NCBI RefSeq assembly: GCF_000170755.1
Contig: NZ_ABCK01000011.1
Coordinates: 62,001-126,000, forward strand
Length of the DNA: 64,000 nucleotides
Source: Lentisphaera araneosa HTCC2155
Lineage (GTDB): Bacteria; Verrucomicrobiota; Lentisphaeria; Lentisphaerales; Lentisphaeraceae
Reading direction: 5' to 3'
Shown here: positions 18,100 through 21,487 of the stretch, piece after piece
Layout of the letters: every line of letters begins with the position of its first letter
How positions within the stretch are numbered: the stretch's first letter is position 1
Notes under the pieces: generated by a model
Databases searched by the model: none
Seen by the model: only the letters and a program-made list of their open reading frames with translations
What the model was told of the DNA's origin: nothing
Position numbers and translations under genes: made by a program

Positions 18100-19803
18100 C
18101 TATTCAACTTGTGTACTACCCCGGGGCTTTGACGCAATTTCATTCATATGACTTAAAAAATCCTCTGGTAAATCAATCAATCGCGTATTGTTTTGCCTCT
18201 GATGAATTGGCAAGCGTATAGAAAAAACCGTCCCATTCGCATCCGAGGAGAAGCTTATATTCCCTTTGTGGCCTTCAATGATTTTTTTCGAAACAGCTAA
18301 GCCTAAACCTGTACCTTCATCCCCTTTACCAGTAAAGAAAACCTCAAAAACTCGAGATTTCATTTCTTCAGGAATGCCTTCACCATTATCTATGACGTCG
18401 ATTTCTAACAATTGCTCAGACTGAGATAAATCGACACGGAGTTCAATCACGCCACCTTCAGCTCCTTTGTATTTACCCACTATCGCATCTGCGGCATTAT
18501 TAAGTAAATTCAAAAGAACACGATGAATCGCCATTGAATCAATATCGACAACTAAACTCTTGAAACGAATCTGATCGCTAACTTTTAACTCTATCCCGCG
18601 ATTCTCAAAGCCTTGCTTTATTAGTTCAACCACTTCAATTATAATTTCGGTTAGTGAATGGGGTTGGATATTGAGGCTAGACTCTTTAGCTAAATTGAGC
18701 AAATCCAGCATTAAACCAGATAAGCGTTTATGATTTCTAGAAAGAACTCCCCAAGCATCATTCATTAAACTCGAATCTTCTTCGTCAATGCCCATTCTCA
18801 TGAGATAAAGACAGCCATCCACACCTGTTAGAATATTTTTGATATAGTGAGATAAACTTGCAGCCGTACTACCTAAAGAAGCCAAACGTTCCGATTCGAC
18901 TGTACGCTGATTCAAACGTAAACTAAACAAATGACTTGCCGTTGTAAAGACAACTCCCGTTAAAAACTGTAAATCTGCCTCAGTAAAACTTAGTTCATCA
19001 CCAATAAAAGAAGAACTTAAACAGACGATACCAAGAAGTTCTCTTTCATGGATAAGCGGAGCCACTAAAAACTGCTGATTCCTACCCATGACGACTGATT
19101 GTGTTGCATCCTTAATCTCGCGGATGTTATATACACATAGAATTGCCTTAAGATTCATCGACACATAGTTCAAAACTTTTCTACTAACTGGAAACTCTGA
19201 ACTATCCAAACGCTGATATTGATCATCTATGCCTATTGTAGGAGATAAATATTCATCACTATCATTAAGTAAATAAAGACAAGCCTTTTCAGCATGAGGC
19301 ACTGATTGTATCAAATAGCGCGAAACCAAGGTGAACAACTCTTCTTCGTCTTGTACACCTTTAATAAGGTCAGTAAGTCCATAAATCGCCGCTAAACGCC
19401 TATGCTCAGAAGGGTACATCATTTCATCTTCTGCCATCGACAAATTACGTAAATGCAGAGGATCTATACTATGTAAAATCCTTAAGTTGGATCTTGGATC
19501 ATTATCTGGAAAATCCACTTCTAAAACAGATGAACCAATGCGAATATGCTGTAAATTTTTTAGCTCATGAGTCCCTGTGATTCGCTCTGTCCCCAACCAA
19601 GTCCCATTTGAGCTGTTCAAATCTTCAATCCACCACAATCCATCTTTAGAAAATATTCTAACGTGTGTTCTAGACATTCGTCTATCGGCAACTGGAATAC
19701 TCGACTCAAGCGCCCTTCCAACTGTCGTACTATCTTTTACCGAAACGCTTTTACCTGCAGATGGACCTGCAATAAAGTGCAACATGACTTCAGTATGACT
19801 CAC
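18100..19803 (-). CDS. FHA-GAF sensor histidine kinase
   Basis: 567 residues from a GTG start with AAGGAG 5 nt upstream. Domains: FHA (~8-95; VGRALESS, RRMSRTHVRI, DLNSSNGTWLG), GAF (~135-290), dimerisation/phosphoacceptor helix with His319 (SLSHYIKN), and a HATPase_c domain with N box NLLNNAADAI, DNGEGIP and GTGLGLAVSKKIIEGHKG. No transmembrane segment, so it is a cytoplasmic sensor; the FHA domain implies control by phosphothreonine partners. No response regulator is adjacent. FHA-GAF-HK proteins are common in delta-proteobacteria and PVC bacteria. Confidence 0.92.
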   Translation of the reverse strand: MSHTEVMLHFIAGPSAGKSVSVKDSTTVGRALESSIPVADRRMSRTHVRIFSKDGLWWIEDLNSSNGTWLGTERITGTHELKNLQHIRIGSSVLEVDFPDNDPRSNLRILHSIDPLHLRNLSMAEDEMMYPSEHRRLAAIYGLTDLIKGVQDEEELFTLVSRYLIQSVPHAEKACLYLLNDSDEYLSPTIGIDDQYQRLDSSEFPVSRKVLNYVSMNLKAILCVYNIREIKDATQSVVMGRNQQFLVAPLIHERELLGIVCLSSSFIGDELSFTEADLQFLTGVVFTTASHLFSLRLNQRTVESERLASLGSTAASLSHYIKNILTGVDGCLYLMRMGIDEEDSSLMNDAWGVLSRNHKRLSGLMLDLLNLAKESSLNIQPHSLTEIIIEVVELIKQGFENRGIELKVSDQIRFKSLVVDIDSMAIHRVLLNLLNNAADAIVGKYKGAEGGVIELRVDLSQSEQLLEIDVIDNGEGIPEEMKSRVFEVFFTGKGDEGTGLGLAVSKKIIEGHKGNISFSSDANGTVFSIRLPIHQRQNNTRLIDLPEDFLSHMNEIASKPRGSTQVE

Positions 19804-19848: not shown

Positions 19849-20751
19849 TTAATCTAAATGAAAGATCACTTGTCCCAAGTCAGAAAAAGCTTGATATTTT
19901 TCCTTCAAAATTCGCTCAAAATCTCTCGAAAAGGCTTTTTTAAAATCTTTGCGCAACTTTTTATCGCGAACTGTACGTACTTTTATCGATAAATAATCGT
20001 ACTCACCACCTGCTTTAAGGTAATCTCCTATAGCTTTTTGGAGGTAATTAGACGACTTATCAAACAAGTCTTCGATATGATCATAAAATGCCAAGTCCAC
20101 TAGGGGGGGCATTGAGAGGCTCTTTGAAATTTCATCCAGATACACCTCTATATGAATCGACTGGAATAAATAGCCCCCAGAATCAATTTGTAGGTGCTGA
20201 GTATTCCAATCAACTTGATCTGCACTCAGGTTGAGAACAGCTCGAAAGCTTTGATTTGGGATCAACAAGCCTTCCCCCAAACGATAGGGTCTTTTTTCTA
20301 TTTTACTTAAGCGCAACTCTTCTAAACACAAGGCATGAATAAATGCGTCACTCACATCATCTTTTGCGTAAGCCGCACCATCAATTCTTTGCTCTATGCG
20401 CTCATGTAATTTTTGATCAAAAGCCTCATCCAAATCGAGCAACTTATTTTTTATTCTTTCTGATAAGATTGGAGCTTCTTTGTTACAGGACTCGCGAAAA
20501 TGTGCCGCAACATCGGTCAAACCATTATCTATGAGAACTCTGAAGAGTAAATCATCTAAATCATCTTTTTCGACAAGTTTATTCTTAGCAAAAAAACTCA
20601 TTGCTAGAAGTATGTCATCTATAATAAATGAGTCGTGAAAACCACACTTTTTAAAACTACTCTCTAAAACGGGTTTATAATCACCTAAATCGAGACTGAT
20701 AATCTGACCGTTTTCTCCAACGGGAATAAGCTTATTGTTGATCTGAATCAT
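19849..20751 (-). CDS. Unknown protein with ATP-cone-like N-terminal region, overlaps nrdR
   Basis: 300 residues. Residues ~7-88 follow the spacing of an ATP-cone: a strand pair around a Gly turn (GENGQIISLD), two helices with a hydrophobic ladder, then DDLDDLLFRVLIDNGL and DVAAHFRE, which mirror the ending of the ATP-cone in NrdR and class I/III NrdA/NrdD. The typical K-R-D/N-G start is not kept, so it would be a diverged cone. The remaining ~210 residues (FIHALCLEELRL, RPYRLGEGLLIPNQSF) are not recognised. Its ATG lies 20 nt inside the nrdR 3' end, so it is translationally coupled to NrdR, the dATP/ATP-sensing repressor of ribonucleotide reductase genes. Confidence 0.6.
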   Translation of the reverse strand: MIQINNKLIPVGENGQIISLDLGDYKPVLESSFKKCGFHDSFIIDDILLAMSFFAKNKLVEKDDLDDLLFRVLIDNGLTDVAAHFRESCNKEAPILSERIKNKLLDLDEAFDQKLHERIEQRIDGAAYAKDDVSDAFIHALCLEELRLSKIEKRPYRLGEGLLIPNQSFRAVLNLSADQVDWNTQHLQIDSGGYLFQSIHIEVYLDEISKSLSMPPLVDLAFYDHIEDLFDKSSNYLQKAIGDYLKAGGEYDYLSIKVRTVRDKKLRKDFKKAFSRDFERILKEKYQAFSDLGQVIFHLD

Positions 20752-21205
20752 AATCTACAGATTGCATAGACTGAATTGTCTCTATAAACTCTGAAGCATC
20801 TTTAAACTCTCTGTAGACCGATGCAAAACGTACATACGCAACTTCGTCGAGACGCTTAAGCTCGATCATAACCATCTCGCCTATTTCGTGAGAGAAGACT
20901 TCTCTATCCAAACGATCAGAAACACTCAACTTAATATTTTCTACTGCCTCATTTATTGCATCATCACCCACCGGACGTTTACGCAGAGCAAGTTGAAGAC
21001 CTTCACGAACCTTTTGTATATTAAAATCTTCCTTTCTTCCTCCTGATTTAATCACCATCAAATCTCCCCGAACCATCTCCTCCTGTGTTGAAAAGCGTGT
21101 ATTACAAGAGTTGCATTGACGGCGTCGACGCAAAATATTCCTATCTTTCGAGAGGCGAGTTTCTAAAACTTTATTAGATGTATTAGAACATTCTGGACAG
21201 CGCAT
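20732..21205 (-). CDS. nrdR: Transcriptional repressor NrdR
   Basis: 157 residues. N-terminal zinc ribbon with Cys3, Cys6, Cys31 and Cys34 (MRCPECS, CNSCNTRFST) and the basic stretch RRRRQ, followed by an ATP-cone (~48-140; VIKSGGRKEDFN...). NrdR binds NrdR boxes upstream of ribonucleotide reductase genes and responds to ATP/dATP. Length is normal. It overlaps the upstream Trm112-like gene by one base (TAATG) and the downstream ATP-cone-like gene by 20 nt. No nrd genes are present in the window. Confidence 0.97.
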   Translation of the reverse strand: MRCPECSNTSNKVLETRLSKDRNILRRRRQCNSCNTRFSTQEEMVRGDLMVIKSGGRKEDFNIQKVREGLQLALRKRPVGDDAINEAVENIKLSVSDRLDREVFSHEIGEMVMIELKRLDEVAYVRFASVYREFKDASEFIETIQSMQSVDYDSDQQ

Positions 21206-21393
21206 TACTTCTCCTCAAACTCAAGAAAATCAGGCATTAATACACCTTGCCCATCGGGGCCATCTAATTGTTTCAGCTTGAATACTTGTTTACATGATAG
21301 GCAATGCAACTCTTTTCCTTTCTGCTCTAAACCCTCTCCAGATTTACATACAGGGCAGTTCAGTAACTCTAATAAATTTGCTTTTAGCTGCAC
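21205..21393 (-). CDS. Trm112-like small zinc protein
   Basis: The frame is open to a TTG at 21465, but the GTG at 21393 is preceded by AGGA 8 nt upstream and gives the usual family length and start (QLKANLLELLNCPVCKS); 62 residues. Two zinc knuckle pairs are visible: CPVC and CLSC, followed by LMPDFLEFE, close to the 'G.P.LLP' end of the Trm112p/YcaR family. Eukaryotic and archaeal Trm112 activate methyltransferases; bacterial YcaR-like proteins are less defined. First gene of the minus-strand trm112-nrdR-unknown unit. Confidence 0.75.
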   Translation of the reverse strand: MQLKANLLELLNCPVCKSGEGLEQKGKELHCLSCKQVFKLKQLDGPDGQGVLMPDFLEFEEK

Positions 21394-21487
21394 AATAATA
21401 TTCCTATAAAAATGTATAAATTCATGTAATGAGACAGACACTAACTCGTCCTCAATTATCTTCAATAAGAAACTTTATTTTTCCACT

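Follow-up and report, generated by a model that had tools for sequence, protein, structure and literature searches.

Directly behind nrdR in Lentisphaera araneosa HTCC2155 lies a gene that is near-universal in the class Lentisphaeria (phylum Verrucomicrobiota) and that is, within the open-access literature searched, previously undescribed. Its product begins with a degenerate, cone-derived domain rather than an ATP-binding cone. We tentatively read it, at slightly less than an even chance, as a co-translated partner of NrdR whose nucleotide-blind cone would contact NrdR and change its assembly.

The window, the whole 64,000-nucleotide stretch of DNA that was analysed, carries this NrdR-companion gene on its minus strand (19849..20751; ATG start, 300 amino acids). 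The protein combines a degenerate ATP-cone, consisting of a beta-hairpin and four helices (residues 7–95; 20467..20733, minus strand; from predicted-model alignment and the PF03477 matches of relatives), with a C-terminal beta/alpha domain without a Pfam family (residues 187–300; 19852..20193, minus strand; from the AlphaFold2 model of the window protein). Upstream is nrdR (20732..21205, minus strand; 157 amino acids), encoding the zinc-ribbon and ATP-cone repressor of ribonucleotide reductase genes. Its identity is secure, with TIGR00244 matched over its cut-off at 154.9 bits, PF03477 at 75.7 bits, and PF22811 matched as well. The sequence-only reading had given 19849–21205 as the span of the unknown gene, a span that takes in the companion and nrdR together; its placement of the ATG 20 nt inside nrdR was borne out by the open reading frame coordinates. 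The resulting overlap of 20 nt (20732..20751, minus strand) is likely to reflect translational coupling. A Trm112-like small zinc-ribbon open reading frame (21205..21465, minus strand; PF03966, 24.6 bits) precedes nrdR in the same gene string, with a one-base overlap between its stop and the nrdR start. An FHA–GAF–histidine kinase gene (18100–19803 of the window) adjoins the companion and is transcribed in the same direction.

The companion is a real gene, evolving as a protein. Comparison with two congeners (76 and 73% identity) indicated purifying selection, with dN/dS of approximately 0.09 and 0.07, values of which only the direction is safe, synonymous sites being near saturation. NrdR diverges more slowly, with 90–91% identity in the same congener pairs.

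The N-terminal domain is assigned as an ATP-cone by descent, on sequence comparison across relatives, and by predicted fold. The window protein itself matched no Pfam or NCBIfam family, nor PF03477 when hits up to E 10 were allowed. Among its relatives in the A4 alignment, however, 16 of 23 matched PF03477 at E ≤ 0.01 (best 4e-10), and of ten relatives tested against this family two (L014 and L019) exceeded the gathering score and four fell below it at E < 0.005. When a profile of 86 N-terminal parts was compared with NrdR cones using hhalign, the match had an E value of 3.3e-7 and a score of 39.0, which none of 60 shuffles reached (highest shuffle 34.7); similarity to the cones of NrdD was at E 9.3e-9. 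AlphaFold2 models were obtained for a relative (L129; pLDDT 79.2) and for the window protein (pLDDT 61.7, low confidence). VIA-align placed residues 7–99 of the L129 model on NrdR and ribonucleotide reductase (RNR) cones with Z up to 13.7, and residues 5–98 of the window model with Z 9.7–10.8. A sequence search of the PDB returned chance-level matches only, and no cone, for the A4 profile, and none for the third-form profile described below, so the assignment draws on the Pfam matches of relatives, the profile–profile comparison and the predicted structures. Foldseek returned no match for the window model at E ≤ 0.001; against viral models it returned reductases and phage ATP-cone proteins, among which the companion layout was not recognized. 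The order of ATP-cone elements that the sequence-only reading described is therefore real by these three routes but undetectable from the window protein alone, and the PF03477 search it proposed failed for that protein and succeeded for most of the relatives.

In Streptomyces coelicolor NrdR, the inner nucleotide is contacted by K50, R51 and E56, and the outer nucleotide by K62 (PMC9110341). The equivalent positions in the window protein hold, in order, a gap, E, I and D. Lysine at position 50 was found in 85 of 85 NrdR and 37 of 37 NrdD sequences, compared with 4 of the 86 unique long-form companions to which the window protein belongs (6 have Arg) and 0 of 30 members of a short form; at position 62 the counts were 85/85, 37/37, 3/86 (8 Arg) and 0/30. 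Only one of the 86 long-form members has a basic residue at both positions. A third form has lost the hairpin bearing Lys50 and Arg51 and aligns only from the residues that follow it; the hairpin-turn glycine is kept in 74 of the 86 long-form members. Because the nucleotide-contacting residues are missing, we term the domain degenerate and cone-derived, and because the phosphate-contacting lysines are lost, the companion cone is, judged from these alignments, probably nucleotide-blind. The proposal that the protein is nucleotide-sensing runs against the loss of all four contact residues in the window protein and nearly all of its relatives. As a separate observation, the window NrdR (20732–21205) has Ser and Gly at the hairpin positions that are Arg51 and Asp52 in most NrdRs, and keeps Lys50 and Lys62.

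The companion shares parts of its architecture with several known systems and differs from each. Its likeness to the NrdR ATP-cone lies in fold and sequence ancestry (L129 model, VIA Z 13.4 to 9a6n and 12.5 to 7p37), but it lacks both the contact lysines and the zinc ribbon of NrdR and has an additional C-terminal part of approximately 90–220 residues. No match to the NrdR-type N-terminal zinc ribbon (two CXXC) was found in the companion with Pfam or NCBIfam; the protein starts with the cone. The ATP-cones of the RNR proteins NrdA, NrdD and NrdB are likewise N-terminal and of the same fold (L129, VIA Z 13.7 to 5olk, an NrdB, and 12.6 to 5im3), whereas the companion lacks the contact lysines, the catalytic barrel, the radical site and any reductase family match: neither the window protein, at only approximately 300 residues, nor the tested relatives matched PF13597, PF02867 or PF00317. 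Beyond the cone, no Pfam or NCBIfam family covers the companion in any member tested, and the statement that the remaining approximately 210 residues match nothing known still stands. The C-terminal domain aligns with the core of class III NrdD above the unrelated rows shown, but does not have the length to accommodate the active site. An N-terminal ATP-cone also occurs in proteins of 448–481 amino acids (L090, L091, L092 and L093) from other classes of the phylum, where it precedes a phosphoribulokinase/uridine-kinase domain (with a family match in L090, L091 and L093). We rejected these ATP-cone and PRK-type kinase proteins as companions on the strong PF03477 match and the PF00485 kinase domain of L090, L091 and L093. 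We found no description of a protein like the companion in the open-access literature searched, and the available part of a full-family reductase study (PMC9531940) has nothing on such truncated or inactive relatives.

In a first search for relatives, 18 of 98 genomes had a match, counting the window gene itself. Of these, 17 were true members; L013 was dropped, as its local match within a 721-residue open reading frame was spurious. A profile of the 17 members matched 184 of 197 class genomes, of which up to four of the weakest (G015, G136, G179 and G183) may be reductase cones only. All 81 Lentisphaeria genomes that were ≥90% complete and ≤5% contaminated had the companion; none of those four is among the 81, and in the two weakest of the 81 (G006 and G056) the companion lies directly behind nrdR. 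Of the 197 class genomes, 177 had a detected NrdR, as did 77 of the 81 good ones. When named genomes were scanned with a closer alignment, 22 loci emerged, 20 of them labelled Lentisphaeria, Lentisphaerae, Lentisphaerota, Victivallaceae or Victivallis, one Kiritimatiellota and one only ‘bacterium’.

Linkage was counted in the 128 Lentisphaeria genomes with both genes among the matches listed. The companion was on the same strand and downstream of nrdR in 89 of them, at a distance of ≤150 nt in 73, 151–800 nt in 5 and approximately 1.9 kb in 11; in the other 39 genomes the two genes were on different contigs. The 1.9-kb cases fall in one family (f8), and in the one checked (L083) a CLC chloride channel gene intervenes. 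Exact coordinates for the 86 unique long-form members showed nrdR upstream in the fetched stretch for 59, with the companion overlapping nrdR in 40 of the 86 and starting within 30 nt in a further 12, counts in which a few large overlaps are doubtful as starts were chosen by profile. In Lentisphaeria the overlap is often 4 nt. Linkage in relatives, on which the sequence-only reading had staked its proposal, holds far beyond the genus. There are also exceptions. Four good genomes (G039, G045, G127 and G128) have a companion and no detected NrdR. In G045 the companion follows ymdB directly, where the order in G006 is ymdB, nrdR, companion, and in G128 it follows the CLC gene, as it does in nrdR-bearing relatives. 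The ymdB–companion junction of G045 (L079) looks like a clean excision of nrdR; a second such locus, L080, is that of G039, also NrdR-less. Elsewhere, an unlinked companion (L071) adjoins dnaN and a RecF-like gene.

Outside the class, weak matches led to a shorter form of 175–186 amino acids, right behind nrdR in six loci. A profile built from these six (A3) found the short form strongly in other families, and among the matches listed nrdR immediately preceded it on the same strand in 30 of 30, with a gap of −14 to +155 nt. Further families have a third form, of approximately 200–250 amino acids, as the open reading frame behind nrdR. We examined 70 nrdR loci, a non-random sample comprising the top 30 by NrdR score and 40 picked for family spread, and found a companion of some form directly downstream in 52: 41 by the third-form profile A6 (7 of them not rows of A6), one in a second frame (L253), and 10 belonging to the short or long form. 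The other 18 had no companion or an unassigned open reading frame downstream of nrdR, five of these loci being in family f41; the similarly placed open reading frames L255, L281 and L299 were left out of the companion count. An A6 match was present in 36 of 171 phylum genomes; the 171 include many Lentisphaeria, and no genome of that class was matched. Over both domains, the third form matched the long form at E 3.9e-8 and the short form at E 1.1e-8, with 0 of 50 block-shuffles reaching the score in either case. It also matched the C-terminal part of the long form alone (E 4e-5, 0 of 50 block-shuffles) and that of the short form (E 6.5e-6, a value without shuffles). Compared directly, the short and long C-terminal parts were not significantly similar (63 of 80 shuffles reached the score), and the link between them therefore runs only through the third form. 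On these profile comparisons, the three forms are assigned to one family with common cone helices and a C-terminal domain without a Pfam match.

The C-terminal domain is well predicted in L129, where pLDDT is approximately 90 from residue 180, as a beta–alpha–alpha–beta–alpha–alpha–beta arrangement. Its best structural rows are reductases, aligned without the cone: the L129 domain matched 4coj with Z 7.7 (139 residues, rmsd 4.0) and 1xjf with Z 6.5, and the domain of the window model matched 1hk8, the NrdD of phage T4, with Z 6.9 (133 residues, rmsd 4.5), compared with Z 5.8 over 84 residues for its first unrelated row. All of these Z values are below 8, where a match can be a common arrangement. 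With hhalign, the domain was not significantly similar to the whole NrdD core (14 of 60 shuffles reached the score); against the first 230 core columns it scored 16.4, which 0 of 60 shuffles reached, the reversed control scoring 15.4. Since Z is below 8 and sequence comparison does not confirm the match, we treat reductase ancestry as only a possibility. We think it doubtful that the companion is, in the fullest form of the proposal, a phylum-wide, co-translated NrdR partner derived from ribonucleotide reductase, with a nucleotide-blind ATP-cone and a remnant of the reductase core.

We also looked for sites through which NrdR could act in this organism. In a genome scan, the box pattern and its reversed control matched equally often; single boxes therefore mean little and only pairs were used. 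Two NrdR-box-like sites 31 bp apart lie 260–290 bp upstream of nrdA (L229, C9:46758–46804). This is the expected operator layout, and by this sequence criterion nrdA is a likely target of the organism's own NrdR. No NrdR boxes were found at the nrdR operon of the window with up to 3 mismatches. Another pair, 30 bp apart, lies near a Fic/DOC family gene (PF02661; L228, C18:21272–21317), a possible NrdR target outside the reductases.

In PMC9110341 and PMC12176259, NrdR is described as using its own cone to sense ATP and dATP, with cones that pair with each other and assemblies that switch under these nucleotides. Because ATP-cones pair in NrdR oligomers, we propose cone–cone pairing for the companion as well. 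Co-translated with NrdR, and with a cone that descends from nucleotide-binding cones, has lost the phosphate-contacting lysines and is probably nucleotide-blind, it would most likely serve in protein–protein contact, its cone pairing with NrdR cones. Such pairing would shift NrdR between a DNA-binding tetramer and a non-binding higher oligomer, and the conserved C-terminal domain would supply an effector activity or contact ribonucleotide reductase. The contact with NrdR, the effect on oligomerization and the role of the C-terminal domain are inferred. Speaking for a partner are the old and widespread linkage behind nrdR, the three-form family with both domains conserved, the cone ancestry, the lost contacts, the cone pairing described for NrdR and the likely nrdA target. 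Against it stand the four good NrdR-less genomes, the 39 of 128 genomes in which the genes lie on different contigs, and the 18 of 70 nrdR loci without a recognized companion. Furthermore, all of the linkage evidence also fits shared expression without contact. As the four genomes without detectable NrdR keep the companion, a strict co-repressor role is disfavoured, and this retention suggests that the companion has, or can acquire, another contact, perhaps ribonucleotide reductase. The earlier suggestion of a partner or corepressor of NrdR survives as the likeliest reading, weakened by these genomes and by the companions on separate contigs.

It is unlikely, though a serious alternative, that the companion acts on ribonucleotide reductase or dNTP supply other than through NrdR, with co-expression reflecting a common role in dNTP balance. 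Persistence in NrdR-less genomes would fit this, as would the many f5 and f8 genomes in which it lies apart from nrdR, the position of the unlinked L071 companion beside dnaN and a RecF-like gene, and a cone and alpha/beta layout that in predicted models resembles the N-terminal half of the RNR large subunit. However, there is no fixed link to RNR genes and the neighbours differ among unlinked genomes. The companion is kept both with NrdD and, in the organism's own family (f1), where NrdD was not detected, which leaves no single RNR class as its partner. Old gene order might instead account for the whole association with nrdR, the companion having an unrelated house-keeping function; its status as a class-wide core gene, kept when nrdR is lost or moved, is compatible with this. 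We consider it improbable given the overlapping starts, the persistence beside nrdR in many families and in three diverged forms while other neighbours change, and the fact that the domain common to the companion and NrdR is the ATP-cone. A companion that still senses a nucleotide non-canonically, or another ligand, as a second sensor for NrdR would draw on the cone fold, predicted to be intact in the long form, and on the turn glycine retained in most of its members. Set against this are the near-absence of Lys50 and Lys62 equivalents from the long form, their complete absence from the short form and the missing Lys50–Arg51 hairpin of the third, and we regard such sensing as very improbable.

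If the companion is an NrdR partner, control by NrdR would be a two-component affair in these bacteria and across much of the phylum, and the companion would offer a natural separation-of-function case for the role of an ATP-cone once nucleotide binding is lost. Should the more doubtful derivation from ribonucleotide reductase also hold, the companion would be a ‘dead’ subunit in NrdR or reductase assemblies that sets the response of dNTP control, adding a pseudo-enzyme layer to a regulator thought to be self-sufficient.
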